From positions 5,104,501-5,168,500 of the forward strand of contig OX326959.1 of the NCBI GenBank assembly GCA_946800325.1: 64,000 nucleotides of DNA, given 5' to 3'. The stretch is from Luzula sylvatica. Taxonomy: Eukaryota; Streptophyta; Magnoliopsida; Poales; Juncaceae. Under the pieces are notes generated by a model. That model saw only the letters and a list, made by a program, of their open reading frames with translations. It was not told the DNA's origin and searched no databases. The translations under genes were made by a program, and so were the position numbers. Positions 24,828-62,149 of the stretch are shown piece by piece. The stretch's first letter is position 1. Every line of letters starts with the position of its first letter.

Positions 24828-26829
24828 GTGCTCGCCAGTCCGATACTCGGTCCCGATTTGCAGACTCGTTATCGTTTGAAGGTTCTTCCTGCTTTGGCCA
24901 ACGCCATGGACGATTTTCAGAATCCACGAGTTCAGGCTGATGCTTCGAGTATTTTGGATTTCACCAAGAATTGCACTGATCCTAAGAATCTCACTTTTTG
25001 TTTGGATATAATTGTTTTGAAATTAGTATTTCTTCTTCATAATGGGGAGCAAATGGTTCAGGAAGGTGCTTTGACTGCCTTGGCTTCTGTAATTGATTCC
25101 TCGAAGGTAATTAGTTATGTTAAAATTTGGACTTCATATGATTGGAGATAATATGGGTATTTGTTGTTTGGGATAAATAACAAAAGCAATGGAAAGCTTT
25201 TAATCAAATACAACACACAGAAAGAAAGAGAGAGACCTCACAGGGGCAATTGCCCCTTTTTAATTTTCTTATAAATTTTTCTCTCTCAAATTCGTACGGA
25301 TTACATTGGTTTATATAGGAACCTTATACATCCCCCTTACACACACCCTTTCAACCATACATCATATCTATCTAAATTCTGGATAATTCTTTTCTAACTA
25401 TAGACACCTCTTCATGTCAAAAGACACCTACCATTCACACACAAATATATTGAATATTAACCTGCCCCTAAATTAAATATAATATTATTAATTAATATAT
25501 TAAAGCATTAATTTTAATACTCCCCCTTAATGCTTTAACTCGTCATTCCCATAATTTCTCGAAATCGAATGAACTTTTCGCTTGGAAGCGCCTTAGTGAA
25601 AATATCCGCCAATTGATGTTTTTCTTTTTCGTTATTTTTTTTTTTCTCTCGATACTCCCCCGTGATATTTTTTCCGTCACGCTCGTCTATTTTTTTTAAA
25701 CTCCTTTTTTTTTTTTAATCGGTTTTTTTTCTGAATCGCCTTTTTTCGCATCATCTTTTCGAATCGCCTTTTTCCGAATCGTCTTTTTTTTTTTTTGAAT
25801 CGTCTCTTTTTTCTTCATCGAAATTGAGTTGCGAAACTTGTGGAAACCCGAACATACCGTCTTGGGTTGTCGTGGCCTTCTCCTACTCCAAATTTCTGCT
25901 AAACTCGATAAATCGGTAATGAGTTGTGAAGTTCGTGTGAGCCCAAGTACGTAACCTTCTTGGTTGTCTTGGTGACTCCTTCTTCGACTTCTACTAAACT
26001 CGATAATTCGAAAATGAGTTGTGAAGTTCGCGTGAGCCCAAGTACGTAACCTCTTTGGTTGTCTTGGTGACTCCTTCTCCGACTTCTACTAAACTCGATA
26101 ACGGTCGTTTTTTTATTTTTATTTTTTATAACCGCCTCTCGATAATCGTCGCTTTAGATAACCGTCGATCGATAACCTTGGCTCTGGTACCATGTTAAAA
26201 TTTGGACTTCATATGATTGGAGATAATATGGGTATTTGTTGTTTGGGATAAATAACAAAAGCAATGGAAAGCTTTTAATCAAATACAACACACAGAGAGA
26301 AAGAGAGAGACCTCACAGGGGCAATTGCCCCTTTTTAATTTTCTTATAAATTTTTCTCTCTCAAATTCGTACGGATTACATTGGTTTATATAGGAACCTT
26401 ATACATCCCCCTTACACACACCCTTTCAACCATACATCATATCTATCTAAATTCTGGATAATTCTTTTCTAACTATAGACACCTCTTCATGTCAAAAGAC
26501 ACCTACCATTCACACACAAATACATTGAATATTAACCTGCCTCTAAATTAAATATAATATTATTAATTAATATATTAAAGCATTAATTTTAATAATATTC
26601 GCAATTATTATTTGCATCATTATGATGATAATCTTTTTGGTTATTTTCACTTTTAGGGGCAATTCCAAAAATATTATGATGCGGTAATGCCGGAATTGAA
26701 GAGGATTTTTTTCAATTCGACTGGTTGGTCGAAAATAATGCTTAGAACCAAGTCTATAGAGTGTATTAGTTTGGTTGGTATGGCTGTTGGCAAAGATAAA
26801 TTCAGAGACGATGCTAAACAGGTTATGAT

Positions 26830-26893
<64 letters not shown>

Positions 26894-29800
26894 AGTGACT
26901 ACTTTTTAATAACGATTATTTGCATAACTATATTAGGTTATGGATGTGTGCATGCCATTCCGCAGAAATAATTATTGTCTGCTCTTTGACTCAGATAGGC
27001 ACTACCTGCTACAGGCACACTTCTAGAATCTTCTTTCTATTCTATATAATATTCAATTTAGTTGTCGAATTTATATAATTATAAATATATTTACAACAGG
27101 CATGGGAAAGGATATACAAGTGTTTGGGACAAGATTTTCTCCCCTACATAGAAGTCTTGATTCTTTCGCTACTCGATAAAACTGTACCGAGAGACTTCAT
27201 TACATTAGCAGATTCTGACGATGACAGCATCGAGACGATTACATTAGCTGGCACGAGGACAGGGATCAGAACCAGTGTAATGAAGGAGACAGCCAGTGCT
27301 TGTAACCTTCTTTGTTCTTACGCTGACGAATTTCCAGAGCGTTTTTTCTGTTGGAGTTTTCATGTTTGAATCTGAACCCTTCATTTCATTGAACTCTCTT
27401 GTATCTTTCTTATTTTTATTTTTTTGCTTTTCAGGTTGCTCAAAGACTGGTACTTCTCTTGACGTTCTATTTCAACGAGGAAGTGAAAAGGGCTGCAGTA
27501 GAAGGTATAATATATAAATATTTTTATTTATTTATGTATGCGAATATCAAAGCTGAAATACATTTCTTATATTTTATTTTTTGTGTAGCTATGCCTAAGT
27601 TATTGCGTTCGGCAAAAAAAGTTATCGCAACGGAACAAGGACAAAAAATCAAGAAACTCTCTGATTTGATTATACCAGCCTTAGTCCGGGCTCTTCACAA
27701 GGTTTCTTTAAAGAGCAACATACATTAATTACTTAACTGCAAAATTAATTATGATATTAACTTATATGATTTTTGTTTGGTATAGGAGCCCAAGACCAAA
27801 ATCGCTGCTGCGATGCTCGAATCATTGAACGAATGCATGCAGGTTTGTTATCTGTGCACAACATTTATATTCTCTACAGATTAACAAGAAACTAATTTTA
27901 TTATCTTTTTGTAGTCATCTGGAGAGATAATAGAAGAAAACCAAGTGAGGTCCATTGTAGACGAGATCAAGAACGTCATTACTGCGAGCGCAATGAGGAG
28001 AACGGAGCGATTGGAGAGGGCCAAAGATGAGGAAGAAAATGAACAGGAGGAAGTGATCTTCCATCCGGTTAGAAATTTTAATTAATGTTGTTGTTATATT
28101 TATTTTAGGGAAATTTTACTCTTCCCCCCAAACCCACTTTGCCATCCACGATATGGGTTTGGGGGGAATTCCCATCCCCAAAATGCACCCACACAATTCA
28201 ATTGATGGTTAATTCAAATTTTAATTAATGACTAATTCAAAGTTAATTAACGGTTAATACAATTGTACTATTTATTAACAAAAATTAAAAATTTTAATTG
28301 ATGATTAATAGAATCTTGGGTACACGAATTGGGGAGGCGAATCAATCCTCCCCATATCGTGGATGCACGGGTGGGTTTGGGGGGTAGGATAAATGGCCTC
28401 TTTATTTTATTTAATTAAAACTGGGTGTTTGATGTTTGATTAGGTTGGAAAATGTTTGGGCACGCTAATTAAGATTTTCAAGAATAATTTCCTTCATTTC
28501 TTCGACGAGTTGTCTCTTTACATTACTCCTATGCTGGTGAGCTTTTTGAAGGCTTATCATGGAATTTTCAAAAATTAAGGGTCTAACTGAAAAATGTTTA
28601 TGTGTAGGAAAAAGATAAGACTGGGGAGGAAAGGAGGATAGCCATTTGCATTTTCAATGATGTGGCTGAACAATGTCACGTAGCAGCTCACAAGTACTTA
28701 CTTTCTTTCAAATAATACTATTTTCCTTAATTATTTTCCTTAATTATATATTGTTATTTGTATTAAATTAAAACAGATATTACGGAACATTTCTTCCATA
28801 CCTCTTGGATGCATCTGATGATGAGGATGTCAATGTTCGACAAGCTGCTGTATACGGAATTGGAGTATGTGCTGAATACGGCGGAGTGGTGTTTCAGCCC
28901 CTTGTAGGAGGTATTATTAATTATTAATTAACCATAATTGATAAATATAAATAATTCATGTTTATTTATTAATACTTAATAATAAAATGCAGATGCATTG
29001 ACGAAGCTAAATTATGTGATAAGACAGGCAGATGCATTGAATTCAGAGAATGTAATGGTGTACGACAACTCCGTCTCTGCTCTTGGCAAGATTTGCCAGT
29101 ACCACAGAGAAAGCATCGATGTTGCTCAGGTTTTTTTTTTTTTAATTTCCTATTTATTAAACTTTATTTAATTGAAAAAACATAAACTATTAATTTGTTA
29201 ATTGTTGACACAAATATTGGTCGTTGCAACAGGTGTTTCCAACTTGGTTGAGCTGTTTGCCGTTAAAAGGCGATTTAATTGAAGCCAAAGTCGTCCATAA
29301 TCGACTTTGCTCTATGGTCGAAAGGTAAATAAATTATTCAAATATAACTTCTTCTTGTTGTCATTATTAATATTATACTTATTGATGTTTACAGGTTTGA
29401 TCCCGAGTTATTAGGACCTGACAGTAAATACCTCCCTACAATTGTGTCTGTTTTTGCTAAGGTATATTTTTTATATTACTTTACTTTTGTAATTAAACAT
29501 TAAAATGAATGAAAAATATATTATGCCCCAAACTCAGAAAAACACTTTTGATGAGTGGCCAAAAAGGTAGGATGGGTCGATTAGTATTTTTAACTGTTTT
29601 TATTAAATGTTAATTGACACCTCCATAATTTATAATAGAGATTTTATATGGCATCTCACAAACACAAAAAAAACATCGTCGATGCATCAATCGAGGTAAT
29701 TTAATGGAGATTAATTGGAATGATTAGTAATAAAATCAATACTTAGTTGAATTGATTCAATTAAATGACTTAATCAATCCAATTAACTTCCATCGATTAA

Positions 29801-30396
29801 CGCATCAGTGAGGTTTTTTGTGTTCATGGAGATATAGCATATTTATCCTTTATAATATATTAATATTAATACATGTTAAATGACGTGTCAATTCAATTAA
29901 ACAGTCCATTAAACCGCTAACTAAATCAATTAATAATACTAATCAATCAATTTAATCGTCTCTTGCCACATTATTGAGGATATTTTTTTAGTTTGAGGAG
30001 ACCATATCAAACCCCTAAAATGAATGATTGGAACTAATTTATTCAATTGGGAATTAAATTGTTTAGGTATTATTGTTTGGGAAGGATTTGGCGAGTGAGC
30101 AAACATTAATAAGAATGATAATCCTATTGAGAAGGATTTGGCGAGTGAGCATACCTGCAGTGTTGGCGACGTCGTGGAATTCGCTGACGCAACAACATCA
30201 ACTATTTCTCCAATTTATCCTTGATCTTCAAGAAAATGAACTTCAATTTGTGATTATGAATATCGGACTCGAACATGGATTCGGCCAGTCCACACGACTG
30301 GCGACACGACCGAATCGGACCAGGCTCGGTCGTATCGGAGAAAAAAATCGAATTGTTGATAAAAAAATACAAAAAAAAAATACAAAAAAAATGTAA
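24828..30396 (+). CDS. Importin-5/IMB3-like partial paralogue, copy A (15 exons, no native start)
   Basis: Exons: to 25106, 26657-26821, 26937-27014, 27100-27363, 27435-27504, 27589-27701, 27786-27842, 27915-28067, 28444-28536, 28608-28693, 28777-28910, 28993-29129, 29233-29324, 29395-29461, 30067-30396. All phases agree and no stop interrupts them. It encodes the middle and C-terminal HEAT repeats of a nuclear import receptor of the importin-beta3 family (LKVLPALANAMDDFQNPRVQ, ISLVGMAVGKDKFRDDAKQ, RQAAVYGIGVCAEYGG). The first in-frame ATG is at 24906, giving ~680 codons against ~1100 in full-length family members; the Ran-binding N-terminus is missing. Intron 1 holds a young LTR element, intron 8 a MITE. 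The C-terminus runs into non-importin sequence before stopping. Probably a pseudogene, though its frame is preserved. Confidence 0.8.
25118..25519 (-). mobile_element. 3' LTR of deleted copia element
   Basis: 402 bp, nearly identical to 26193-26594 with three substitutions seen. The element lies on the minus strand. The polypurine-like TTAAGGGGGAG (reverse complement of CTCCCCCTTAA at 25520-25530) sits directly inside this LTR. The plus-strand boundaries are TGTTAAAATT and TTTTAATA. It lies in intron 1 of importin copy A. Confidence 0.92.
25520..26192 (-). mobile_element. Internal remnant of copia element (Gag start and RNase H end only)
   Basis: Next to the 3' LTR the minus strand encodes HQLADIFTKALPSEKFIRF, the C-terminal end of a copia RNase H. 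Next to the 5' LTR is TGGTACCAGAGCC, a tRNA-Met-type primer-binding site (26192-26180). Between them is a Gag N-terminus (TTQDGMFGFPQVSQLNFDEE) with a ~100-bp segment duplicated in tandem (about 25903-26000 and 26000-26098). T-rich low-complexity runs fill the rest. Nearly all of gag-pol is deleted, so this is a non-autonomous derivative mobilised by a relative. Confidence 0.88.
26193..26594 (-). mobile_element. 5' LTR of deleted copia element
   Basis: 402 bp, with three mismatches to the other LTR (A/G near 25222/26297 and two near 25450-25470/26525-26545). About 99% identity between LTRs implies recent insertion. I could not define a clean 5-bp target duplication. Confidence 0.92.
26833..26891. 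repeat. (CT)n microsatellite in importin intron 2 (copy A)
   Basis: About 29 CT units just after the exon 2 splice donor. The same position carries CT/GA runs in copies B, C and D. Confidence 0.95.
28108..28400. mobile_element. MULE-type MITE in intron 8 of importin copy A, 293 bp
   Basis: A perfect 9-bp target duplication TTTATTTTA flanks it (28099-28107 and 28401-28409). The inverted ends share CCCCCCAAACCCAC and ATCCACGATATGGG blocks over about 50 bp. Copies C and D lack it at the same intron, so it arrived after copy A separated. Confidence 0.88.
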
Positions 30397-30429
30397 AAAA
30401 AAATTAAAAAAAAAATCAGATTTCTTAAA

Positions 30430-31500
30430 TAAAGATTCTCGTGAGCCGAGATATCCATGTGAATGAGAAGAGCGCATGAGATTGGATTAAGAAGTGTGAT
30501 ATGGAAGATGAGGAGGCCGAGTAAGGCGAGTTGGACAAAAAAGAATTTCCAGGTGTTGTACCGACTAGCCCCCACAATACTTGATGATGAAGACGAGCCG
30601 AGGCCGACACACACGAGGAACTTACAAGTGTTGTACGATGCAACAAGTGAGGTACATCTTGTTTGTCATTTGGCAGATGCGGAAGATATTTTCTTTGATG
30701 AGGCTGTGAGAAACAAGAAATGGCAACCCGCGATGGATAAAGAGATTGGGGCTATCGAGAAAGACAAGACGCGGTACTTGGTCGAATTATGAGAAGAATG
30801 CATGCCCACATGAGCCAAGTGGTGGTGAACGAAGAAGATGAATGCTCAAGGAGAGATTGAAAGGTACAAGACTCGATTGGTGATGAAGGGGTATCAGCAA
30901 AAGGCCGATACTGATGGACGAGGTTTTTTTTTCTCCTGTTGTGATAATGGAGACGATCCGACTTCTCATAACTCAAACAGTGCAATTCAAGTGGTCGATC
31001 TATCAGATGGACGTGAAATCGACATTTCTGAATGGCATGCTCGAAGAAGAAGTCTATGTCGAACATCCACCTTACTACGTGAAAGTTGGGAATGAAGGAA
31101 AGGTGTTGAAGCTGAGAAAGACGTTAACGGACTCAAACAGACACCTCGAGCATGGAATATCCGAATCGACACATACTTCAAGTCGGCCGGGTTTGTACAA
31201 TGCTCATACGAACATGCATTGTACGTGAAGATGAAGGGAAACAACGTGTTGTTTGTTGCTCTCTATTTTGATGATCTGATTTTCATGGGGAATAATGAGA
31301 AGATGGTGAAATTATTCAAAGAAGCGATGACACGAGAATTCTAGATGATAGATTTGGGCCTGATGAAATATTTTCTTGGTCTCAATATTAAACAATGTGA
31401 GTTAGGTATATTTGTATCGCAAGAGGATTACGCGAAGGACAGCTTGAAGAGGAACAAGATGGAGGATAGTAACCTAGTGGCGACACCGATGGAGTTATAA
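30430..31500 (+). pseudogene. Ty1/copia reverse transcriptase remnant
   Basis: Several frames must be joined to follow it. In order they give FFDEAVRNKKWQPAMDKEIG, IERYKTRLVMKGYQQKAD, IYQMDVKSTFLNGMLEEEVY, LYFDDLIFMGNNEKM (the YVDD box altered to YFDD) and MKYFLGLNIKQCELGIFVSQ. These are copia RT segments in the correct order, broken by at least four frameshifts and stops. It begins just after the stop of importin copy A exon 15. No LTR was recognised. Confidence 0.85.
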
Positions 31501-32297
31501 ATATAGTAAAAGATGAAATGATAGACACAATTCTTTTGGAGTGCCTATAAATATAGTAAAGGATGTATTAGTCTATAATGTTATAAATGTTATAATGTTA
31601 GCTATAAAGGTTAATTGTAAAAATATAATACAACCATATTTAGTTAAACTATTATTTTTCGCTTCTAAAATCCCAGATTTCAGATTACAAAATATATATA
31701 CTATAAACATTGATAAGTAAAAGTAATTTCTACAAGCTTTAATTGGGCCTTCATTTATGAGGCTAATTTTTAACACAACCAGCCTTAATAAATAAAAAAT
31801 CCTCCATGAATGAGGCCCTCGTCTCTCTTGAGTCTCGAGCTGTTTTTATTCTCCCTGCTCCTTGTCCATCTACCATGGCGCTCAAAATCTTCATGCTAGC
31901 ACTAGCAAAGTAGCCTTGCAAGATGTCAGGATATTCTTTCACTAGGATTGAAATGTAAATAATGAGAATGCATTTGGACTGTCGTGAGGCTAATTATCGA
32001 ATGTCTGATATAATCTGGGATTATTTCATATGAAATTAGGTGATATTTGGGTTTAATAAATATTGAGACTTACATACAACCTTAATCTGATATTTAATTA
32101 CCATTCACATGCATAAAATGTGAAAATTTTAGTTGCTGAAAAAAACAATGAGTATAGTTATTTAGGCAAAAAATTATTTATGCAACAGTCATATGAGCAA
32201 CAAGGAAAAAAAACCCAAGAAAGAATAGTTTAGAAATTCAAAATGTATGAATACTCTTAACTGAAAATTTACGAGTTTCATAAATGTATGAATACCC
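31501..32297. other. Non-coding interval
   Basis: A+T-rich, no gene recognised. AAATGTATGAATAC occurs twice at about 32240 and 32284, flanking the left edge of the GC-rich minisatellite. Confidence 0.5.
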
Positions 32298-32762
32298 TTT
32301 CGGGCCGGACACCCCCGAGGGCCCAACCCCCTCCGGACACCCCCGAGGGCCCAACCCCCTTTCGGGCCGGACACCCCCGAGGGCCCAACCCCCTTTCGGG
32401 CCGGACCCCCCATCCCCCCCGAGGGCCCGGCCCCCTTTATGGCCGGACCCCCCCTCCCCGAGGGCCCGGCCCCCTTTCGGGCCGGACCCCCTCCCCGAGG
32501 GCCCGGCCCGGCCCCCTTTCGGGCCGGACCCCCCCCCCCCCGAGGGCCCGGCCCGGCCCCCTTTCGGGCCGGACCCTCCCCCCCTCGCCCAGCACCCTTT
32601 CGGACCGGCCCCCCCGAGGGCCCTGCCCCCTTTCGGGCCGGACCCCCCCCCTCCCGACCTGAGGGCCCAACCCCCTTTTTGGCCGGACCCCCCTCCCGAG
32701 GCCCGATCCTTTTTTGGGCCGGACCCCTTCCCGAGGCCCGACCCATTTGCGGGCCGGACCCA
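32298..32762. repeat. GC-rich minisatellite, ~33-45-bp unit
   Basis: About 13 variable copies of TTTCGGGCCGGACCCCC followed by CCGAGGGCCCGGCCCCC or CCGAGGGCCCAACCCCC. It stands out sharply from the A+T-rich surroundings. C-runs give long G-runs on the minus strand. Long frames on both strands here are Gly/Pro/Arg repeats read from the minisatellite and are not genes. Confidence 0.95.
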
Positions 32763-32955
32763 ACACACACAAACACACACACACACACAACACACACAAG
32801 TCATACACACGCACACACACAATCACACACAGACACACACACACATACAAAGGACACACAGACACGCACATAGAGCAATATACACACACACACACACACA
32901 ACAACAAAAAATTAACAAGCACAGACACAAAGACTGAGAGATACACACACATGCA
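32763..32955. repeat. CA-rich low-complexity tract
   Basis: Irregular (AC)n with interspersed AGACAC, AATCAC and AACAAC, directly following the GC-rich minisatellite. Confidence 0.95.
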
Positions 32956-34674
32956 ACATTGATTGGATTTCTTGTCTTGAGACTATGGCTTCCTTTCCTC
33001 ATACTTTGGAATTTCTTGTCCTGAGATCTTGCACTTTTATGTCTATCAATCATCCAATTTATTGCATTTCTGCATCAATTGTGAAAACAAATTATATTAA
33101 ATATTTGAAAAAATAGATTGAATTATTAAAATTGGGTAAAATACAAAATTACCTTCAATGGATGTGTCCAGCACAGTTTTGGTCCTCGAGAGTAATTCAC
33201 CAAATTTCCCCTCGCTATTTGTTTGCCTCTTTTTAATGTTTCGCGTCAGTATAGTCATTAGGATCCACAAGCACATCCATTCCATCACAGAACAGAGAAT
33301 TAAGCAAGAGGGCCATGTCCAGAGTGTATGTTATGTTGGTTGCAATTGTCAAATCGAATACATCAATCTAATAAGAACACAAAGAAATAAGTATATATCT
33401 TTATAATTATCAAATTCAAATTTGAAACAGAAATGGACAGTGTTCTGCCTAAATTGCAACAAAAAAAAACAATCCGTGCATTCATTCATCATGAAGAGGA
33501 CACGAGGTATAATAAATAATTAACCATGAAGAGAACTGGTCTGATGAGAAAGAGAGATCTTTAGGAAGGAAGAAGGAGAGACGAGAGGATTCTGTTCTGA
33601 TGGGCGTATATAAAGAGAAGGCGCTGATTCAATTTCCAACGTTCGGATTTTCAAGCTTCTAGAAGATATTCAGATCTTGTTTTTCTTCACAATCATCTCC
33701 AGTTCAAGAGAACTGGACGAACCTCCCTTGCAAGAAGCCAAGCAAAAGCAAGCTGCAAGCTTATTTGTATCACTGTATCAAGTACTCTCTTTGTGGAAGA
33801 TTATTTGAATGAAATAAATAATTAATAATCATAGTATATAGTATATTAGTTAAAACTGGGGCAAGAAGCTGTTAAATTTTATCTCTCATGTTGTTAATAT
33901 AAATATCGATTTATATCTGGGGCAAGAAGCAAAGTGGATAAACACAATAATGGAATTAGCACAAGTGTGAGGGCTAGTTTGCATTTTTACAATACTTACA
34001 CAATTTCATGATTCATTTTTTAGTTTTCACCTTTCATTATTCAATTTCGATTATCATCTATTTTTTGTTGAATTAGATTCTCTCGACTGGTGATTGGGTT
34101 ATTTTCGATCATCAAATATGAAGTTTCGAATTTCATCATTTTTTCAATTTCCAATTTTGGCATAATTAGGTTAATTAAGTTCATAAAGTTGGGCAAATTA
34201 TTAGTGTTCCCAATTTGTCATTTTTTCCATCTTAGGGATTTTGATAGGTTTTTGAAATTTTTTTGTTCAAATTTATTAAAAACTCGTAACATCTAGACTT
34301 TTTCCAGAGATTAAGGCCTAATTAGGTTAACATCACAAAAATTTCCAATTTTGGCCTAATTAGGTCAATTTCTTTCAACAATTTTATGTTTAATATTTGA
34401 AATTTGTTTTGTTTATGGAAAGAATGCACATTCTTTTTTCTTGTGTTGTTTTGTAAATGGAAATTAAATTCATAAGAATGTCTACATTAAACTCGAATCG
34501 TCAAATAAAAGTGAAGAGTAATACATTTTTACATCACCAAAATAACATCGCAGATCAACAAGTTACATGATTTATAACAAGTAGCTCAAAAATCCTACTT
34601 TCGAATCGACTAAAACTTCTCTCTACTAAACAACACACTTCACCCACCTGTCAATTAAAGAGGATAAGCCTAAT
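32956..34674. other. Intergenic DNA, no gene recognised
   Basis: A TATATAAAG box at about 33607 is followed by a less A+T-rich stretch (33620-33790), which could be a promoter/leader or an LTR fragment; nothing downstream is codable. CAATTTCCAATTTTGGC recurs near 34148 and 34343. Confidence 0.45.
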
Positions 34675-38441: not shown

Positions 38442-38501
38442 TGGAAGCTATCGTAGTTAGCTTTGTATCTTTCTTTCTAAGGAACCGAACTTATTTTTAT
38501 T

Positions 38502-41500
38502 ATGTGTACGAATTTAAATATTTTGTCGTGGAATGTTCGTGGATTAGGATTAAAAGGAAAATGTAATATGGTCAAGGACTCTATTAGAAAAGCTAAACCG
38601 AACATTATTTGCTTGCAAGAAACAAAATGGGCCAATCCCAATCCTTTCTATAAAAAAAGGGTTCTAACCGCACGGCATGGTGACGTGTTATACAAAAACG
38701 CGCAAGGATCAAAGGGGGGACTCATGGTGGCTTGGGACAACAAAGTCTCCTTGATTGATTCCTTCCACACCCAATCTTGTATAAATATCATATTCGCAAG
38801 AGAAGACGGAACAAAGTTCCTACTCTCCAACACATACGGGCCGGCCTCGGCATCATCAAGGGAAAAGTTAAATTACGTTCGGGAAATAGTAGGAATAAAT
38901 AAGGATTTAAATCTACCATGGATAATCATAGGAGATTTTAATTTAATTAGATCAAGCCATGACACGACCGCAACCAATCTCAACACAAACATGATGTTAC
39001 ATTTCAATGAGGCAATCGACTCGGCCAATCTAACGGAAATCCCATTAAGAGGAAGGAAATTCACATGGTCAAATAAAAGGGAAAATCCAACCCTAGCGCG
39101 CTTAGATAGAGCTTTCATTTCGGAACACCTATTAATACAAAACATGACGATCACTCTCGAAGATCTACCAATGACCACCTCGGACCACACACCAATAATA
39201 CTAAAGATCAAAAATAACCAAATCGAGATGTCTAAATTATTTAGATTCGAAAGAGCGTGGCTAAAATTTGAGGAATTGAACGGGTTGTTACCCGATTGTT
39301 GGCAACAACCGGCAATAACAAATGACAATCAAATTAAATCCTTCCAAAAAAGCCTCGACAAATCAAGAAAAAAAATAAAGGAATGGGCAAAAGCGAAATT
39401 CAAATCATCAGACATTGAGCACGATGATTGTCTCCTAATCATAAAAATTCTAGATCTTGCCGAGGAGGAACGGGATCTATCAATGGACGAATTACGATTA
39501 AGAATCTCGGCAAAGGAAAAAATTTGCGAATTGGTAAACCTCAAAGAGGCCGTATGGCAACAAAGGACGTCATGTACTTGGCTAAAACTAGGTGATGCAA
39601 ACACCAAGTATTTCCACGCCATAGCTTCGGCACGGAATAAAGGAAATAGAATAACGACAATCAAAATTGATGAGGAAATGATTTCGGACCCTAGCCGAAT
39701 ACAAGTAGAATTCGATGCTTATTACGAAAACATCCTCGGCATAGCACCCCCCCTTCCCTCTAACTCAAGACACGGGGGCGCTAATACAAGCCGAACCAAA
39801 CAACACAAGCACATTGTTGGATCTAGCGAACCCTTTTACCGATGAGGAAATTAGACGGACCGTCATGAACATGAAAAAAGGAAAATCGGTGGGACCCGAA
39901 GGATTCCCAATAGAATTCTACCAAAGTTTTTTCGAAATAATAGAACCAAAACTCAAAGGCTTATTTGACAATTTCTACAATCATACCTTGGTTCTAGATT
40001 CCATAAACGACGCAATAATAACCTTAATTCCAAAAAAGGAGGAAGCCATAGAAAGAAAAGATTTTCGCCCAATTAGCGTCATCAACACGATCGGAAAAAT
40101 TTTCTCGAAGAGTTTGGCCGCGAGATTGCAACCCAAAATGGAGAATCTTATTCATCGCGACCAAGCCGCTTTCATAAAAAATAGATCCATAGGTGAAGTC
40201 TTCCTCTCGGCACGAGAACTACTTAGTGCGGCACACAAAAGAAAAATACCGATGATCATGCTCAAATTAGATTTCTTTAAAGCTTTCGACACAATCTCAT
40301 GGGACTATATCCAAAACCTTCTTGCGGCTCGGGGTTTTCCGGCAAAATGGTCAAGATGGGTAAAGGAGTTGTTAAGCTCGGCAACGTCAAAGGTGAAAAT
40401 AAACGGAAACATAGGAAAAAAATTTAAACACAAACGCGGAGTAAGACAAGGGGATCCCTTATCACCGATGCTTTTCGACTTGGTGGCCGACTCGCTACAA
40501 ACCTTCCTCCAAAAAACAAACCACCTAATGGCATCACCGGTCAAGTTTGCAACAAGGGCTCTCCAATACGCCGACGACACTATCCTCTTTGTCGAGGCGC
40601 ACCCGATCAATCTCAAGGTATTAACGTACACTCTAAATCTCTTTCAACGGATTTCGGGACTTACAATAAATTGGGACAAAACCGTATTTGTTCCAATAGC
40701 CATACCGGAGTCCTTATATGAGACATTAGAGAGGATACTACATTGCACGAGAACAACACTACCAATCTTGTACCTCGGCATGCCTTTGAACACAAAAAAA
40801 CCAAGGAAAATTGACTATATCCCCCTAATTAAGAAAATGCAATCTCGATTATCGGGATGGAAAGGAAAATGTTTATCTTTGGGAGGACGTTTGGTACTCG
40901 CGAAATCGGTGCTAAATGCGGTGCCGACATATTTCATGCAATGCTTCCGCCTCCCAAAATGGCTAATTAAGGAAATTAATAAAATAACAAGGAAATTTCT
41001 TTGGAAAGGTGATAAGGATTGTCTAGGTGGACATTGCCTAATTAATTGGAAAAAGATTTGCTTACCAAAGGAAAATGGAGGATTAGGGATGCTAAACATC
41101 GAAACGCACAACACGTCTCTCTTGCTAAAATGGCTTTGGAAACTTTGCCAAAATAGTGATGGAATGTGGGCGACCACCATTAAAAATATTTACGGTATCG
41201 AACACGCTTCCGAATAAGAAAACGTGGCAAGCAAGCACCCCTCCTACTTCATCAAAGACCTCCGTGCACTTCTCTCACAATTTCGAATCGCATACGATTT
41301 TGACCCGACAACGAACCAACATGCATGGATGGGCAAACCGAATATTTTTTCCACCGCCGCAACCTACAAGCTCCTAATAAATCCGGGAATGATAAGTGAG
41401 TGGAACACCGCCGTATGGAAAACAAAAGCGCCCGTCAAAACAAGATTCTTTACATGGTTGGCTCTCAACGAAAGAATTTTAATGGGTGATATATTGAAAA

Positions 41501-41850
41501 AAAGAAATTGGCCACACGCGACGACGTGCAAAAATTGCAACAATAATGTCGAAGAATCGGCGACACACTTATTCATCAATTGCACATATGCAAAAAGTGT
41601 TTGGCGGGGAGTTGGTCGCATCCTAGGAGTCACTTTTGGGGCTCGCGACAACTTGCCGAAATTTTGGTTGCACAATCGGCAAAAATATTCCAAAGAAAAA
41701 ATGGACGAAATCGACACCTTCTTCGTGGCAACACTTTGGACTATTTGGAAAGAGCGAAATGACCGGATTTTCAACCAAAACTACTCGCCACCATCCACGA
41801 CGATAGCGAAGATTGTGTCCGAGGCAAGAAAATGGAAACTTCATTGTTAG
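38502..41850 (+). pseudogene. LINE ORF2: endonuclease, reverse transcriptase, zf-RVT (two lesions)
   Basis: 38502-39845 holds the exonuclease-endonuclease-phosphatase domain: ILSWNVRGLG, ICLQETKW, WIIIGDFNLI and TTSDHTPI. 39814-41217 holds the RT: FRPISVINTIGKIFSKSLAA, LKLDFFKAFDTISWDYIQ, GVRQGDPLSPMLFDLVADSL and LQYADDTILF. 41218-41850 continues in the RT frame with zf-RVT (TCKNCNNNVEESATHLFINC). The two halves are offset by one base at a run of seven C, and a TAA interrupts at 41215. Apart from these, all catalytic boxes look intact, so the inactivation is recent, or the C-run shift could be a sequencing error. Confidence 0.92.
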
Positions 41851-52793: not shown

Positions 52794-53259
52794 ATGGCCA
52801 AGGAAGCCGAACTCGAGCGACCCATGGCGGCCGTACCAGGTCTCGTCCCTGCTCAAGACGACGCGTCAATTGCAGTGATTTTGAAGAATTGCACTCCTGA
52901 GATTATCACTTGTTTTTTGGGTAGAAATGTTTCGAAATTACTATCTTTTCTTCATAATGGGAATCAAATGGTTCAGGAAGGCGTTTTGACTGCCTTGGCT
53001 TCTCTTGTTAATTCCTTGCAGTTAATTAATTATATTCGCAATAATTATTTGCATAATTTTGATGATAATATTTTGGGTTATTTCTGAATTTTAGGGGCAA
53101 TTCCAAAATTATTATGATGCCGTAATATCGCATTTGAAGGAAATTTTTATTAATTCGACTGATTGGTCAAATAGAATGCTTCGAGCCAAATCTATGGAAT
53201 GTATTAGATTGGTCGGTATGGCTGTTGGCAAAGATAAATTCAGAGACGACGCTAAACAG
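52794..53259 (+). pseudogene. Importin-5/IMB3-like partial paralogue, copy B (exons 1-2 only)
   Basis: Exon 1, 52794-53021, gives MAKEAELERPMAAVPGLVPA, an N-terminus of IMB3 type, which passes directly into the middle HEAT region (ILKNCTPEIITCF, NQMVQEGVLTALASLV). Exon 2 is 53095-53259 (GQFQNYYDAVISHLKEIF ... VGMAVGKDKFRDDAKQ). The splice donor after exon 1 is CAG|TT where copies A, C and D have CAG|GT, so splicing is probably lost. A MITE and another insertion follow exon 2 and exons 3-15 are missing. It is the best preserved example of the start codon and leader. Confidence 0.88.
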
Positions 53260-53270
53260 GTTTATAATTA

Positions 53271-53532
53271 GGGGGCTTCTATCATACATCTTTTTTCTTA
53301 TCATACACCCATTTTCAAGGATATTTGGAGTAATTATCCATTTGTGAATATTTAAGATAAGATCTCAAAATATATTTATCAATTAATGTTTGACTAAATT
53401 AGAATTTGTTGTTGTTCATTTAAAGAAAAATGTCCATAAAAAATAAATTTTATGATACACCCTTTTACAAATATAATTAATTGCTAAAATACCCAAAATA
53501 CCCTTGTAAAAGGGTGTACGGTAGAATTTCCC
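53271..53532. mobile_element. MULE-type MITE, 262 bp, in intron 2 of importin copy B
   Basis: Perfect 9-bp target duplication TTATAATTA (53262-53270 and 53533-53541). Inverted ends include CTTCTATCATACATC and, from the right, ATTCTACCGTACACCC. Same family as 43646-43906. Confidence 0.92.
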
Positions 53533-53542
53533 TTATAATTAA

Positions 53543-53559
53543 TCTCTCTCTCTCTCTCT
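53543..53559. repeat. Short (CT)n in intron 2 of importin copy B
   Basis: About 8 CT units, at the position of the long CT/GA runs in copies A, C and D. Confidence 0.85.
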
Positions 53560-53579
53560 CTGTATAGTGAGTACATTTT

Positions 53580-54182
53580 AGGGCGTGTTTGGATGACTGC
53601 AAGTATGGCAGTTAGTAGTAGTACTTACTGTAGTTAAGCTATTTCTTTTGTTTGGGTTGTGATAATTTATAAATTAATATTAAAATTATAAATATACTTA
53701 ACCAAGCTGGAAGCACCTGTATTAGGCTTGCAATTAAAAGTATACTCGACGAAAATATAATTTATATCACAACGAACATCAAATATAATTGATAATAGCA
53801 CTTCGGACATCAAATATGATTTATAGCTTAATTCAGTTACAGTCCTTGCAAATATAATTAAGACCAAAAATACAAATTGTTGCTTTGCACCACATCCAAA
53901 TAATAAAAATAACAAGATTCTAATGTATTTTATGTGTTTATTTTATGTATTACACAACATCCAAATATTTTTTTTAAATACTCGTAGGTATATATTATTT
54001 TATACATATTATTTTTTTGTAAATAAATACAACACGTATAAATCCAATATATATTTATACATTATTCTATCATTGAATATTATATTTGTTTACACTAATT
54101 TATTTATTTTCAGCTTTTTTTAATTATTTTGTTCTAAAATAATATGTGATTTGGATTCCGACTTTCAAACTTATGCTATGTA
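53580..54182. other. Probable MITE and A+T-rich DNA between copies B and C
   Basis: The sequence begins GGGCGTGTTTGGATGACTGC and near 53893-53906 and 53946-53955 has CACATCCAAATAA/ACATCCAAAT, a weak inverted partner. This fits a PIF/Harbinger-like MITE truncating copy B, but boundaries and target duplication are not certain. The remainder is A+T-rich with no gene. Confidence 0.4.
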
Positions 54183-57037
54183 TTATGATATGTCTTCATT
54201 TGAGTTTTTATCAGATGAATTTGTTTTTATAATGTTTGTCAATTTTTTAAATTTATGTATATATTTTTTTAAATTTGTTTGTATTTTTTTATCAGCAATC
54301 CGATTTTTTTTTCCGACGCGACCGAGTCTGGTCCGATTCGGTCGAGTCGCGAGTCGACTGGACCGGCCGAATCCGAGTCCGAGTCCGATATTGAGAACCA
54401 CGAATTGAAATTCATTTTCTTGAAGATCAAGGATAAATTGGAGAAAACCTTGTTGTTGTTGCGTCAGCGAGTTCCACGACGTCGCCAGCACTGCAGGCTT
54501 GCTCACTCGCGAAAATATTCTCAATAGGCTTATCATTCTACTTAATGTCTGTTGACTTGCCAAATCCTTCCCAAACAATATTACCTAAACAATTCAATTT
54601 CCAATTAACATTTAGTAAAGTCAATTAGAAATATTAATCAACCCTACCAACTTTTTTTGTGTCACCTTATCAAAAGTGTTTTTTTGAGTTTAGGGGCATC
54701 GTATATTTTCCCTTCACTTAATATCTAATTACAAAAGTAAAGTAAAGTAAAGTAAAGAATATACCTCAAGAAAAACGGACACGATTTTAGGGAGGTATTT
54801 ACTGTCAGGTCCTAATAACTCGGGATCAAAGCTGTAAACATCGATAAATATAATATTAATAATAACAAGAAGAAGAAGAAGAAGAAATGATAAATTTGAA
54901 ATAATTTATTTACCTTTCAAGCATATAGCAAAGTCGATTATGGACGACTTTGGCTTCGATTAAATTGCCTTTTAACGGCAAACAACTCAACCAAGCTGGA
55001 AACACCTGTTACGACGATCCATATTTGCATCAATAATTAATAAATTAATAATACATGTCTTTATAATTAAATAAAGTTCAATAAGTAGGAAATGCGTAAA
55101 AAAAAGAACCTGAGCAATATCGATGCTTTCTTTATGGTACTGGCAAATCTTACCGAGAGCGGAGACGGAGTTGTCGAACGCCATTAGATTCTCTGAATTT
55201 AACGCATCTACCCGTCTTATCACATTATTCAGCTTCGTCAATGCATCTGCATTTCAATATTAAGTATTAAAAAATAAACATGAATTATTAATATTTATCA
55301 AATATTGATAATTAATAATACCTCCTACGAGAGGCCGAAACACAGCTCCGCCGTATTCAGCACAGACTCCAATTCCATATGCAGCAGCTTGTCGAACATT
55401 GGCATCCACATCATTAGATGCTTCCAACAGGAACGGAAGAAATGTTTCGTAATATCTGTTTTAATTTAATACAAATACCAATATATAATTAGAAAAAATA
55501 ATTAAGGAAAATATTATTATTCGAAAGATAATAAGTACTTGTGAGCTGCTTCGTGACATTGTTCAGCCACATCATTGTAAATGCAAATGGCTATCCTCCT
55601 CTCCTCCCCCGTCTTATCTTTTCCCTGAACATAAAACATTTTGTCATTCAGACCCTTAAAGTTTGAAAATTACATCATAACCCTTTAAAAAACTCACCAG
55701 CATAGGAGTAATGTAAACAGACAGCTCGTCGAAGAATGGAAGGAAACTATTCTTGAAAATCTTAATTAGCGTGCCCAAACATTTTCCAACCTAATCAAAC
55801 ATCAAACACCCAATTTTAATTTTTCAATATACATTAATTAAAATAAGTACGACAACAACATTAATTAAAATATCTAACCTGATGGAAGATTTCTTCCTCA
55901 TCTTTGGCCCTCTCCAATCGCTCCGTTCTCCTCATTGCACTCGCAGTAATGACGTTCTTGATCTCGTCTACAATGGACCTCACTTGGTTTTCTCCTAGTA
56001 TTAGTCCAGATAACTACAAAAAAAAAAATTTAGTTTCTTGATGATCTTTAGAGAATATAAATGTTGCGAAAAGATAACAAACCTGCATGCATTCGTTCAA
56101 TGATTCGAGCATCGCAGCAACGATTGCGATTTCGCGCTCCTATACCAAACAAAAATCATACAAGTTAATATCATAATTAATTCCACAGTTAGTTAATTAA
56201 TTAATTAATATATGTTGCTTTTTAAAGAAACCTCGTTAAGAGCCTCGACTAAGGGTGGGATAATATAATCAGAGAGTTGCTTGAGATAGTCTTTAGGACA
56301 GCCTTGTGCTTGTTTCTTTACGACAACCTTTTTTGCTAAACTCAGTAATTTAGGCACAGCTACACAAAAAATAAAAAAAATGTATTTTAGCTATGATTTA
56401 CGACGAAAATATTTATATATTGTACCTGCTACCGCAGCCCTTTTCACTTCCTCGCTGTAATAGAACGTCAACAGAGGTTTCAGTCTATGAGAAACCTGAA
56501 AAGCAAAAAATAAAAAATAAAAAAAAAATATAAGAGAGTTGAACGAAATGAAGGGTTCAGATTCAAACCGGATAAATCCAAGGGAAAAAACCCTCTGGAA
56601 ATTCGTCAGCGTAACAAAAAAGAACATTACAAGCAATGGCTGTCTCCTTTATTACACCGGTTCTGACCCCTATCCTCCGGTCTCCGAATGTCATCGTCTC
56701 GATACTGTCATCATCAGAGTCTGCTGGTGTAAGGAAGTCTCTATCTTTCGGTTCAACTGTTTTGAGTAGCGCAGGAATCATGATATGTACGTAAGGGTCA
56801 AATTCTTGTCCCAAACACTTGTATATCCTTGTCCATGCCTGTTATAAATATATTTGTAATTTTATAAATTCGAGAACTAAATTGAATATTGTATAGAATA
56901 AATAGAAGATTCTAGAAGCGTGCCTGTAGCAGGTAGTGCCTTAGTTCGTCGTCGTTCATGCATTGACATCCTTGGAACGACATGCACACATCCATAACCT
57001 AATATAATTATGCAAATAAAAGTTACTCACTGTACAC

Positions 57038-57079
<42 letters not shown>

Positions 57080-57525
57080 ATTATAAACCTGTTTAGCATC
57101 GTCTCTGAATTTCTCTTTGCCAACAGCCATACCGACCAAACTAATACACTCCATAGACTTGCCTCTAAGCATTTTATTCGGCCAACCAGTGGCATTTATA
57201 AAAATCCACTTCAAATGTGGCATTACCGCATCGTAATACTTTTGGAATTGCCCCTAAAATTAAAAAATAAACCAAAAACACTATCATCAAAATTACGCAA
57301 ATATTAATTGCGAATAAAACTAATTACCTGCGAGGATTCAATAACAGAAGCCAAGGCAGTCAAAGCGCCTTCTCGAACCTTTCGCTTCCGATTCTGAAGA
57401 AGAACTAGTAATTTAAAAACAATTATATCCAAATAAAGAGTCAGATTCTCAGGAGTGCACTTCTCGCTGAAATTCAAAATCTTAGAAGCATCAGTCCGAA
57501 CTCGTGGATTCTGAAAATCGTCCAT
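54183..57525 (-). CDS. Importin-5/IMB3-like partial paralogue, copy C (15 exons)
   Basis: Minus-strand exons: 57525-57328, 57253-57089, 56998-56924, 56838-56569, 56495-56426, 56359-56232, 56139-56083, 56013-55879, 55790-55698, 55624-55539, 55455-55322, 55246-55110, 55005-54914, 54831-54765, 54584-54183. Phases agree and no stop interrupts: ~702 codons from the in-frame ATG at 57525. It encodes HEAT repeats of a nuclear import receptor. Exon 4 has the acidic SADSDDDSIET-type loop (here TPADSDDDSIETMTF), and the end has GKDLASQQTLSRM and VLATSWNSLTQQQQ. Sequence to about 57655 carries an N-terminal-like PAQFDALISAIKSQ in another frame. The C-terminus continues ~80 residues into an Arg- then Lys-rich tail read from low-complexity DNA. 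Possibly expressed, but the start is unconvincing. Confidence 0.82.
57040..57076. repeat. (GA)n microsatellite in intron 2 of importin copy C
   Basis: About 18 GA units; reads as CT on the gene strand, at the same place as in the other copies. Confidence 0.95.
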
Positions 57526-57655
57526 GGTGTTGGCCAAAGCAGGAAGAACCTTCAAATGATAACGAGTGTTACGAGTCTTCAAATCGGGGGCCGGCGAGCA
57601 CGGCAGTGGTTCAACAAAGTCTGGGACTTGATAGCGGAGATTAACGCGTCGAATT

Positions 57656-59120
57656 GAGCGGGTCGGGTGTTAGAATTTATCGAGTATTCGGTTAAGAGAT
57701 TGAAAGCTTTAACTTCTTAATTCATTGATTAATCGTGATTTTGAGTACCTGATTAATGATTATATACTAGTTGTATACTTGTATCGACCACTCAACTAAA
57801 TCCTAACGAGTTAACCTAGACCAATAATAAAAAACTATGGGGACCATTTGTTGCTCAAATAAAAAACAAATATAATTAAGACTATTTTTACTTGATTTTC
57901 ACAATCTAAAATAAAAAGGCCAACCGAAAAACAAAAAAAAAGTAAACAAACATTTAAACGAAACCAAAACCAAAAAAAAAGTTCCGTGGTCAAAAACAAA
58001 AAAAAACAAATATGTAAACTACACAAATATTTGTACTTGCTTTAATGTCATACAAACACTTCCGTTAAAGTTAATAAAATAATAATATAATTACTAGTTT
58101 AGCCTTGAATGATTCCCATAACAAACCCTTTGTTCAACAATCCTTCTCTAACAAGCTGTTACTTATTAATTGCTCATTTAGCATATTAAGCTTAGGCTCC
58201 AAACGATTTAAGACTTTCAGAACACTGAAGATAAATACATGGATCCAAACACGTTTCTATTTTTTTTATTTCTCATCAGGTTATATTTGAACAAATAAAC
58301 ATTAATAAAGTTTGAAGTGTTCTCATAAACCCACATACTAAAATTGCATGTTGTAAGTGGTAAAACATCTTCCTTCTCTTATCTAATTCTATCCTGGTTG
58401 AAAAGGAATAATGGAGAGCATTGGCCATTTTTCTCACTTCATTGCCTCCAGTCCAAAATATTTTCACTCACAAAATCAGAAAAAGAATTGAAGATCAGCC
58501 ACCTCGGTATCATGGATCTTTTATTTTTGAATAATTATATCATAATATTTAAATATTTTACTAATTTTTAGATTTTGATCAAGATAACATTGTTTTTATT
58601 TTGTAGATTAAAGATAAGTTAATTTGCATATGTGTTTTCTCTATTGTCTCAATCTTTTCTTTTTGAATAATTATATCATAATATTTAAATATTTTACTAA
58701 TTTAATGAAAGTATCATTTTTTATTCACAATTAATATAATTTCAGATTTTTTTTTAAACAATTAAATAAATATATTTTCCAACATTAACAAACTGAAATT
58801 ACCAATTCAACAACTTTTTACTCCTCAACTTATAATCCAATTCCGCCCTACTAATTCTGCGTGCCAAACGGCCGCTAAACAAACATATAACGAATTTTAG
58901 TTTTTAACGTGTTATAATCAATTTGGTAACCTTTGAATTGTCTCAAATTTCCTCGATATCTATTTCGATAGAAATTACTTTTCGTCACCTTTGAATTGTC
59001 TCATATTTTCTCCATATCTATTTTGAATTTAATTGACTCGATTTTGAATTGTCACATATTTTCTCGATATCTATTTAGAAATTACTTTCGTCACCTTTTG
59101 TCACCGAACTCGAGCAACCC
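57656..59120. other. Shared upstream region between divergent importin copies C and D
   Basis: No gene recognised. TTTTTGAATAATTATATCATA plus about 25 more bases is repeated at about 58527 and 58664. 58940-59110 is a scrambled set of leader-like repeats: (T/C)ATATTTTCTC(C/G)ATATCTATTT occurs about three times and GACTCGATTTTGAATT occurs here and again in exon 1 of copy D. Promoters of C and D, if any, must lie here. Confidence 0.5.
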
Positions 59121-59580
59121 ATGGCGGCCGTACGAGGTCGCAACCCTGCTCAATACGACGCGTACGCGTTAACTGACTCGATTTTGAATTTCAGCAAGAA
59201 TTGCCCTCCTGAGATGGTCACTCGTTATTTGGATTTAATTGTTCCCAAATTACTATTTCTTCTTCGGAATGGGAAGCGTAAGGTTCAGGAAGGCGCTTTG
59301 ACTGCCTTGGCTTCTGTTATTGATTCCTCGCAGGTAATTAATTTTGTTCACAAATATTATTTGCATAATTTTGATGATACTATTTTGAGTTAATTTTTAA
59401 TTTTAGGGGCAATTCCAAAAATATTATGATGCGGTAATGCCAGATTTGAAGAGGATTTTTGTAAATGCGACTGGTGTTTGGAAGAAAATGCTTAGAGGCA
59501 AGTCTATGGAATGTATTAGTTTGGTTGGTATGGCTGTTGGCAAAGATAAATTCAGAGACGACGCTAAACAGGTTTATAAT

Positions 59581-59652
<72 letters not shown>

Positions 59653-62149
59653 GTGTACAGTGAGTAACTTTTATTTGCATAATTATATTAGGTTATGGAT
59701 GTGTGCGTGTCGTTCCAAGGAGGTCAATGTATGAACGACGACGAACTAAGGCACTACCTGCTACAGGCACGCTTCTAGAATCTTCTATTTATTCTATACA
59801 AAATACAATATTCAATTTAGTTCTCAAATTTATAAAATTATAAATATATTTATAACAGGCATGGGCAAGGATATATAAGTGTTTGGGGCAAGATTTTCTC
59901 CCCTACATAGATATCGTGATTCCTGCGCTACTCAAAACAGTTCAACCGAAAGATAGAGACTTCATTACATCAGCAGACTCTGACGATGACTATATCGAGA
60001 CAATGACATTTGTAGACGAGCGGATAGGGATCAGAACCAGCGTAATAAAGAAGACAGCCACTGCTTGTAACGTTCTTTGTTGTTACGCGGACGAACATCC
60101 AGAGCGTTTTTTCCCTTGGATTTATCCGGTTTGAATCCGAACCCTTCATTTCGATCAACTCTCTTGTATCTTTTTTTATTTTTGTTTTCTTGCTTTTCAG
60201 GTTGCTCATAGACTGGTACCTCTCTTGACGTTCTATTATCACGAGGAAGTGAAAAGGGCTGCGGTAGCAGGTATAATATATAAATATTTTTGTCGTAAAT
60301 CATAGATGAAATACAATTTTTTATTTTTTTGTGTAGCTATGCCTAAATTACTCAGTTCAGCAAAAAAGGTTGTCGTAAACAAACAAGCACAAGACTGTCC
60401 TAAAGATTATCTCAACCAACTCTCTGATTATATTATCCCAGCCTTAGTCGAGGCTCTTCACGAGGTTTCTTTAAAAAGCAACATTAATTAATTAATTAAC
60501 TGTGGAATTAATTATGATATTAACTTGTATGATTTTTGTTTGGTGTAGGAGCGCGAACTCGCAATCGTTGCTGCGATGCTCGAATCATTGAACGAATGCA
60601 TGCAGGTTTGTTATCTTTGCGCAACATTTATATTCTCTAAAGATTATCGAGAAATTAATTTTATTATTTTTTGTAGTTATCTGGAGAGACAATAGGAGAA
60701 AACCAAGTGAGGTCCATTGTAGACGAGATCAAGAATGTGAATGATGCGAGTGCAATGAGGAGAACGGAGCGATTGGACACGGCCAAAGACGAGGAAGCAA
60801 TCTTCCATCAGGTTAGATATTTTCATTAATGTTGTTCTCGTATTTATTTTAAATAATTTATATTGAAAAATTATAATTGGGTGTTTGATGTTTGATTAGG
60901 TTGGAAAATGTTTGGGCACGCTAATTAAGATTTTCAAGAATAGTTTCCTTCCTTTCTTCGACGAGCTGTCTGTTTACATTACTCCTATGCTGGTGAGTTT
61001 TTTAAAGGGTTATGATGTAATTTTTAAAAATTTAAGTGTCTGAATGAGAAATGTTTATGTTCAGGGAAAAGATAAGACTCGGGAGGAGAGGAGGATAGCC
61101 ATTTGCATTTACAATGATGTGGCGGAACGATGCCACGAAACAGCTCACAAGTACTTATTATCTTTAGAATAATACTATTTTGCTTAATTAATTTTCCTAA
61201 TTATATATTGTTATTTATTTGTATTAAATTAAAACAGATATTACGAAACATTTCTTCCGTTTCTGTTGGAAGCGTCTAATGATGAGGATGCCAATGTTCG
61301 ACAGGCTGCTGTATATGGAATTGGTGTCTGTGCGGAATACGGCGGAGCTGTGTTTCGGCCCCTTGTAGGAGGTATTATTAATTATTAATTAACCATATTT
61401 TATAAATATTAATAATTGATGTTTATTTATTAATACTTAATAATAAAATGCAGAGGCATTGTCGAAGCTGAATAACGTGATAAGACATGCAGACGCGTTG
61501 AATTCAGAGAATTTAATGGCGTACGACAACTCCGTCTCTGCTCTCGGCAAGATTTGTCAGTACCACAGAGAAAGCATCGATGCTGCTCAGGTCTTTTTTC
61601 TCATTTCCAACTTATCCAACATAAATTATTTATTTATTAATTATTGGCGCAAATATGGATCGTCGTAACAGGTGTTTCCAGCTTGGTTGAAATGTTTGCC
61701 GTTAAAAGGCGATTTAATCGAAGCCAAAGTCGCCCATGATCGACTTTGCTCTGTGGTTGAAAGGTAAATAAAATATTTCAAATCTAATAATTTCTTCTTG
61801 TTGTTGTTATTAACTTATTATTAATATTTTATTTATTAATGTTTGCAGGTATGATCTCGAGTTATTAGGACCGGACAATCAATACCTCCCAAAAATCGTC
61901 TCCGTTTTTGCCGAGGTATATTCTATTTTTTTCTTTATTTTTGTAATTAGACATTAAAATGATTTTGAAATTTGGAATTGAATTGTGAAGGTATTGTGTG
62001 GGAAGGATTTGGCGAGTGAGCAAACATTAAGTAGAATAATATGCCTATCGAGAAGGATGCGAGAGAAGCTGCCGCCTGCAGTGCTGGCGATGTTGTGGAA
62101 CTCGCTGTCGAAGCAGCAGCGAGCTCTTCTCCAGTTCTTACTCTGTTGA
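59121..62149 (+). CDS. Importin-5/IMB3-like shortened karyopherin, copy D (15 exons, intact)
   Basis: Exons: 59121-59333, 59407-59571, 59692-59766, 59859-60128, 60201-60270, 60337-60464, 60549-60605, 60677-60811, 60900-60992, 61065-61150, 61238-61371, 61454-61590, 61672-61763, 61849-61915, 61991-62149. All splice sites and phases fit, giving 626 codons without interruption. The protein starts MAAVRGRNPAQYDA, an IMB3-like N-terminus, then joins directly to TDSILNFSKNCPPEMVTRYL, the middle HEAT region. From there to the end it follows importin-5 (EALSKLNNVIRHADALNSEN, GDLIEAKVAHDRLCSVVER, AVLAMLWNSLSKQQRALLQF). Family members have ~1100 residues; the N-terminal Ran-binding HEAT repeats are missing. 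Such a protein might still bind cargo or nucleoporins (inference). Exon 3 ends at a GC donor. Confidence 0.87.
59584..59650. repeat. (CT)n microsatellite in intron 2 of importin copy D
   Basis: About 33 CT units, the longest of the four homologous runs. Confidence 0.95.

Follow-up and report, generated by a model that had tools for sequence, protein, structure and literature searches.

Shortened importin-5 genes with open reading frames in a gene cluster of Luzula sylvatica

Sd-RanGAP of Segregation Distorter derives from a duplicated gene, and the plant receptor importin-5/IMB3, whose shortened relatives are the subject here, is called KETCH1 in Arabidopsis. Importins hold RanGTP with their HEAT repeats 1-4, and importin-9 without HEAT 1-3 fails to bind it (passages cited from PMC6453568). 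Three described systems come close to a natural importin lacking these repeats: Sd-RanGAP, a truncated nuclear-transport protein (in the portion of PMC7263674 drawn on here); the nuclear-transport duplicates of Drosophila, which are lineage-specific and fast-evolving (PMC8645118, in the part cited); and, as a model, the engineered fragment Kap121.302C without HEAT 1-7, in which the Ran repeats are gone and the C-terminal repeats kept (PMC13034042, in the part cited). Here we describe a 64,000-nucleotide stretch of the Luzula sylvatica genome (assembly GCA_946800325.1, named in PMC11380069; contig OX326959.1, positions 5,104,501 to 5,168,500 of the forward strand; hereafter the window) with four shortened importin-5/IMB3 copies, A to D. 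Three of them (A, C, and D) share a structure and an origin, have intact frames, have lost the Ran-binding half, and change fast at the protein level.

The locus differs from each of these systems. Unlike Sd-RanGAP, it involves a receptor that lost its Ran-binding half, and no drive is known for copies A to D. The Drosophila duplicates are mostly RNA-mediated in the cited account (PMC8645118), whereas the copies here arose as DNA, with introns kept and an internal deletion. Compared with plant importin-5/IMB3 itself, the copies keep the homologous C-terminal HEAT repeats and miss about 400-450 residues; at the sequence level, N-terminal HEAT 1-4 was not found in them.

Four copies with an internal deletion

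Self-comparison of the window and tblastn with three full-length importin-5 proteins gave four copies and one stray piece, with E-values against Juncus importin-5 down to 0.0, a similarity far above chance. The positions agree with the original prediction of four copies (A, B, and D on the plus strand, C on the minus strand) and a stray exon:

24906..30396, plus strand: copy A, a shortened importin-5 gene, open reading frame (ORF) from ATG 24906, about 679 residues, no internal stop, with a 3' extension
24846-25106, 26657-26821, 26937-27014, 27100-27363, 27435-27504, plus strand: copy A exons 1-5
27589-27701, 27786-27842, 27915-28067, 28444-28536, 28608-28693, plus strand: copy A exons 6-10
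28777-28910, 28993-29129, 29233-29324, 29395-29461, 30067-30396, plus strand: copy A exons 11-15
52794-53021, 53095-53259, plus strand: copy B, a fragment of exons 1-2 only, native start MAKEAELE...
57525 (ATG) to 54183 (stop), minus strand: copy C, a shortened importin-5 gene, exon homology from 57588, 15 open exons, about 702 residues with a 3' extension
59121 (ATG) to 62149 (end of stop), plus strand: copy D, a shortened importin-5 gene, 15 exons, 626 residues
24738..24845, plus strand: degraded canonical N-terminal coding remnant of copy A, recognised via alignment to its copy C counterpart
57588..57662, minus strand: remnant of canonical residues 17-50 before copy C, Juncus match at E=0.002, out of frame with the main ORF
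23996-24185, plus strand: stray piece with the end of intron 3 and the beginning of exon 4, at 89% identity to copy A, terminating at a stop

Copies C and D stand head to head, their homology ending approximately 1.4 kb apart. The stray exon-4 piece was at one point taken as frameshifted; this was dropped, as it carries a 3-base insertion and its frame is open up to a stop.

There are 15 exons, with identical phases, in each of copies A, C, and D, bearing out the predicted gene structure. Exons 2, 5, 7, and 9-14 have the same lengths across the three, and the length differences in exons 3 (78, 75, and 75 nucleotides in A, C, and D), 4 (264, 270, and 270), 6 (113, 128, and 128), and 8 (153, 135, and 135) are multiples of three; exon 1 varies, as does exon 15 at its 3' end. 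All 14 introns end in AG and 13 start with GT; intron 3 starts with GC in all three copies, a GC-AG intron common to A, C, and D. Introns, whose absence marks a processed (retro) pseudogene, are thus retained throughout. The stops, frameshifts, and splice loss of duplicated pseudogenes are absent inside the ORFs of A, C, and D and present in B, whose exon 1 has lost its splice donor (CAG followed by TT). Copy D starts at ATG 59121, with no other ATG in the 221 bases upstream, and stops approximately at the canonical protein end. In a search starting at 24650 for A and at 57800 for C, the first ATG gives a frame of only six or two residues, and the next (24906 and 57525) opens the importin frame. 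In the 5' region of copy D (58922-59098), approximately three copies of a 53-bp repeat are seen, the unit of which looks similar to the single-copy 5' region of B.

The copies had been predicted to be N-terminally deleted, and this has to be revised: a simple N-terminal cut was rejected because remnants of the native N-terminus are still present, so that the loss is internal. Copy D starts MAAVRGRNPAQYDA, a native N-terminal piece that continues in frame into the middle HEAT region; copy B starts MAKEAELERPMAAVPGLVPAQDDA, and Juncus importin-5 starts MAAELEQQMAVALGPDPAQFET. Juncus residues 17-50 are matched before C and residues 4-21 before D; the latter match is weak alone (E=0.91), and the same piece is found in B with a native ATG. 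Juncus residues approximately 51-417 had no tblastn match in the window at E<=1, and the main match of copy C extends loosely back to residue 418. Aligned by eye, A and C have their junction at Juncus residue approximately 449, with the remnant clear in C and degraded in A, while in B and D a point near residue 25 is joined to residue approximately 477, later small indels (insertions or deletions) aside. The B/D deletion contains the A/C deletion.

These two junction types would fit a history in which several full-length genes were shortened independently. Against this, the B/D deletion spans the whole of the A/C one, and further derived changes are common to A, C, and D: seven residues missing from the acidic segment that follows TSAD, at least 11 missing from a second acidic segment, and 39 identical derived replacements among 458 ungapped columns (of 486) that are fixed in Juncus, Carex, and Typha. 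Common junctions (A/C and B/D), exons, phases, deletions, and derived residues support one already shortened ancestor that was duplicated repeatedly, as originally proposed, unless an unseen full-length Luzula parent has the same changes, which could in principle be the case. We consider independent shortening unlikely.

Copy C is, on its sequence, a mosaic. Among 2754 three-way columns, 220 sites join C with D, 158 A with C, and 105 A with D, and the A-like sites of C are concentrated at its 3' end: they make up 91 of the 295 sites preceding the best breakpoint and 67 of the 83 following it (p<=0.002 by permutation with 500 shuffles). The 5' junction of copy C is A-like as well. This mixture of A-like and D-like sequence would be most simply accounted for by exchange between copies, with C and D, as inverted neighbours, the probable partners.

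Copies A, C, and D are 69-71% identical to Juncus importin-5, with the C-terminal half aligned over its length. Among the best 120 of 819 matches to the copy C protein, the top identities were to importin-5 of Juncus effusus (P0002, 67%) and Carex (P0003, 66%); the bit score of an Actinidia protein (P0001, 60%) was slightly higher. A copy D query for shortened relatives, in a length range that excludes proteins of more than 1097 residues and hence Juncus, gave none closer than 68% among the best 120 of 450 matches. With maxima of 67% and 68% for the C and D queries, no protein among these matches is near enough to be one of the copies. With Juncus as the query, the nearest protein after Juncus itself was that of Carex (86%), and no Luzula parent was found among the best 120 of 1070. 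Neither a Luzula-named protein nor a shortened Juncus protein was present among the best 120 matches of each of the three queries. In a Pfam run on the whole copy D protein, Importin_rep_6 and HEAT were matched, and TPR_IPO5 and Importin_rep_4, both present in Juncus, gave no match.

Short importin-5 models occur elsewhere: 14 of 225 compared proteins have at most 760 residues and a Juncus match starting at residue 375-519, and none of the 14 had a BLASTP match to the Juncus N-terminus. Like the Luzula copies, these models (e.g., Aegilops P0180, Gossypium P0183, and Trifolium P0201) match Juncus only from mid-protein; they are 76-86% identical to it, and some carry a partial label and may result from erroneous models. 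Five of the 14 start matching exactly at Juncus 478/479, which suggests an exon border there; in A (24846-25106) and C (57588-57328), this position is read through and has no intron.

Open frames and protein change

The frames of A, C, and D have stayed open far beyond what neutral decay would allow. In simulations of exons 2-15 run to the observed differences (500 runs per pair), neutral change gave 9.0 (A-C), 10.2 (A-D), and 7.5 (C-D) stops on average, and none is observed; on the three-copy tree, 13.3 stops are expected (P approximately 1.6e-6 for none). Similarly, 9.5 splice-border changes are expected and none is observed (P approximately 7e-5). Exon indels number 4 (A-C), 5 (A-D), and 1 (C-D) compared to 24-26 expected from intron rates, with Poisson probabilities for so few of 3e-7 (A-C), 4e-6 (A-D), and 1e-10 (C-D); this count omits an 8-nucleotide indel at the stop codon and, where A is one of the pair, the two longest indels in introns. 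All 4 exon indels between A and C are multiples of three, versus 4 of 17 in introns (p=0.012). Independence of sites is assumed in these tests, the expectations for indels and splice borders are taken from introns, and exchange between copies breaks the full independence of the lineages. That the frames are intact so far beyond neutral expectation argues that selection kept A, C, and D open after the shortening. That the copies were never functional, their frames being open by chance in silent duplicates, is therefore extremely improbable, even though the dN/dS (ratio of nonsynonymous to synonymous substitution rates) near 1 in one pair and the changes at invariant sites described below would fit it.

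Protein change gives a more mixed picture. For C-D, dN/dS is 0.62 (p=0.003 versus 1) and for A-D 0.75 (p=0.058), with conserved sites spared relative to variable ones in both pairs (0.57 versus 1.05 in C-D, 0.70 versus 1.14 in A-D). Entire B compared with A, C, and D gives 0.50, 0.52, and 0.84, and exon 2 of B 0.33, 0.20, and 0.35 (55 codons, p 0.001-0.04). Over the three-copy tree, dN/dS is 0.76 (p=0.037 versus 1), and a site model with a constrained class outperforms one neutral class, with a gain of 17.4 log units; an extra class at dN/dS 3.7 improves the model further (p=0.0004). Masking exons 3, 14, and 15 leaves a tree dN/dS of 0.75 (p=0.062), a gain of 9.7 log units for the constrained class, and p=0.042 for the extra class. 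Additional removal of codons with at least two changes in any one pair gave a dN/dS of 0.54 (p=0.0013) and a gain of 5.1 log units for the constrained class, and the signal of positive selection was gone. Some constraint has thus acted on A, C, and D; positive selection is hinted at and is not established, since its signal weakens and then disappears under the stricter masks.

Several observations weigh against three selected, working genes. Between A and C, dN/dS is 0.94 (p=0.68 versus 1), and conserved sites (0.96) are spared no more than variable ones (0.80). Divergence in exons is similar to that in introns, about equal in A-C and no lower in A-D and C-D (0.141/0.145 for A-C, 0.160/0.138 for A-D, and 0.113/0.087 for C-D). 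The native ATG is gone in A and C, so that an internal methionine would be the start, and an 8-nucleotide indel, overlapping the stop codon of copy D, destroys their native stop, which accounts for their common 3' extension. At 331 invariant positions in 30 plant importin-5 proteins (chosen from the best 120 matches to copy C), A has altered 82, C 69, and D 67 residues (20-25%), with 41 positions altered in all three; in a leave-one-out control, each canonical protein changes 0-12 of 344-356 such positions. The strong conservation of the importin-5 C-terminal half is therefore absent from A, C, and D, and with so many invariant residues altered, cargo surfaces may not be kept.

A history that accommodates much of this is that the copies are ordinary duplicates, once useful and recently dead or dying, their open frames a relic. 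The A-C ratio fits such a history, as do the fragment B with its dead donor, the native ATG and stop lost in A and C, and a recent insertion in copy A: a 1.48-kb long terminal repeat (LTR) element in intron 1 (25117..26594, minus strand), whose 403-bp direct repeats (25117-25519 and 26192-26594) are 99.3% identical. The orientation of this element is deduced from what we take to be a tRNA-Met-like primer site beside the right repeat. On the other side, none of the three complete copies has a stop, internal frameshift, or splice loss, and D still has an ATG at its N-terminus and stops where the canonical protein ends. We regard recent death as possible, if rather doubtful. The original prediction had asked for dN/dS below 1 in C and D, and this is what the C-D pair shows; its companion rule, that values near 1 would make the copies dead duplicates, does not settle the matter for A-C, where frames and splice sites are intact. 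By itself, a dN/dS near 1 would label these genes dead, and the frames and splice sites contradict this, at least until recently. The presence of three complete yet fast-changing proteins suggests that they may have served some new use.

Satellite and mobile elements in the window

The other features in the window are as follows:

1..6258, plus strand: satellite array related to the Lusy2 holocentromere satellite, 174-bp unit, 36 units, 25% GC
6189-7809: fragments of a protein with a plant mobile domain (PF10536), right at the edge of the array
17143-17640, minus strand: retrotransposon Pol beta-barrel domain fragment (PF22936), presumably of Copia type
21769-23718, minus strand, and 38481-41850, plus strand: two plant long interspersed nuclear elements with reverse transcriptase and zf-RVT domains

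Aligned to the array as its reverse complement, the L. sylvatica Lusy2 oligonucleotide for fluorescence in situ hybridisation scored 46, compared to 36 for the best of 200 shuffled oligonucleotides and 29 in the rest of the window; the Lusy1 oligonucleotide gave no standout alignment in the window. Lusy2 has 174- and 175-bp variants in a genome of 33% GC, and it is present on all chromosomes of L. sylvatica (passages cited from PMC11538461). Together with the high identity to Juncus importin-5, the satellite match marks the window as plant nuclear DNA of Luzula, most likely L. sylvatica. Within the array, self-identity is 98.97% at an offset of 2944 bases (17 units) versus approximately 91% between neighbouring units, a pattern that indicates a higher-order repeat inside the Lusy2-like array.

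A centromere-type satellite close to several fast-changing copies of a truncated transport gene would fit a selfish or conflict gene, in which a Ran-blind importin half disturbs import in some cells, like the truncated RanGAP of Segregation Distorter. There are precedents (PMC7263674 and PMC8645118, in the parts cited), and the site class at dN/dS 3.7 in one model points the same way. However, Lusy2 lies on every chromosome, so that closeness to it means little, and the signal of positive selection drops under the first mask (p=0.042) and is lost under the stricter one. We think a conflict gene quite improbable.

Possible activity of the shortened proteins

The missing part had been predicted to be the RanGTP-binding region, and published structures place HEAT 1-4 there (PMC6453568, in the part cited). 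With these repeats absent, and by homology to known structures, RanGTP binding is predicted to be lost. Copy D aligns to yeast Kap121 from residue approximately 474. As residue 302 of Kap121 follows HEAT 7 (PMC13034042, in the part cited), repeat spacing would place the beginning of D near HEAT 11-12. In a nuclear yeast two-hybrid assay, Kap121 from residue 302 binds Rpl38, which the full-length protein does not, and Rps2, and the predicted Rpl38 site comprises HEAT 8-16 (same source and extent); copy D would retain part of this site. The likeness has its limits, since Kap121.302C keeps, as judged from alignment and repeat spacing, approximately four more HEAT repeats than D. Importin-5/Kap121 also serves as a secondary carrier, for H3-H4 and, in yeast, for H2A-H2B (according to the cited part of PMC12933015).

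Taken together, we propose the following history. In a Luzula-like rush, an importin-5/IMB3 gene would have been copied as DNA, introns included, and an internal deletion would have taken approximately 400-450 codons, after which a single gene held both the start and the C-terminal half. Further duplication of this shortened gene may then have produced copies A to D, and the copies may later have exchanged sequence. Selection would have kept A, C, and D open after the shortening, as proteins of approximately 626-702 residues for most of their history. Their products would consist of the C-terminal HEAT half, from about HEAT 11-12 to the end, without the HEAT 1-4 that hold RanGTP. The likeliest activity would be that of a binder or chaperone, insensitive to Ran, that takes some of the cargoes of importin-5 and may compete with the full-length receptor. 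Such a Ran-insensitive partial cargo binder is plausible by analogy with Kap121; expression, folding, cargo binding, and competition of D-like proteins are what this proposal presumes, and a decoy or dominant-negative role, as suggested in the original prediction, is conceivable on the same grounds. For the account as a whole, that of a shortened and reduplicated importin-5 family that was selected open and encodes Ran-insensitive partial cargo binders, we see about an even chance. A wider reading is unlikely: lineage-specific importin halves blind to RanGTP would be kept open as their surfaces diversify, acting as dominant modifiers of import (e.g., of histones or ribosomal proteins) in the germ line of this holocentric plant, and possibly as parties to genetic conflict.

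Importins are read as one machine, the N-terminal half of which takes RanGTP and the remainder cargo. If the proposed account is true, a natural family without the first half, and with the second kept open, would be an evolved version of laboratory truncations, and it would let one test, in a living plant, an importin that is unable to release cargo through RanGTP.

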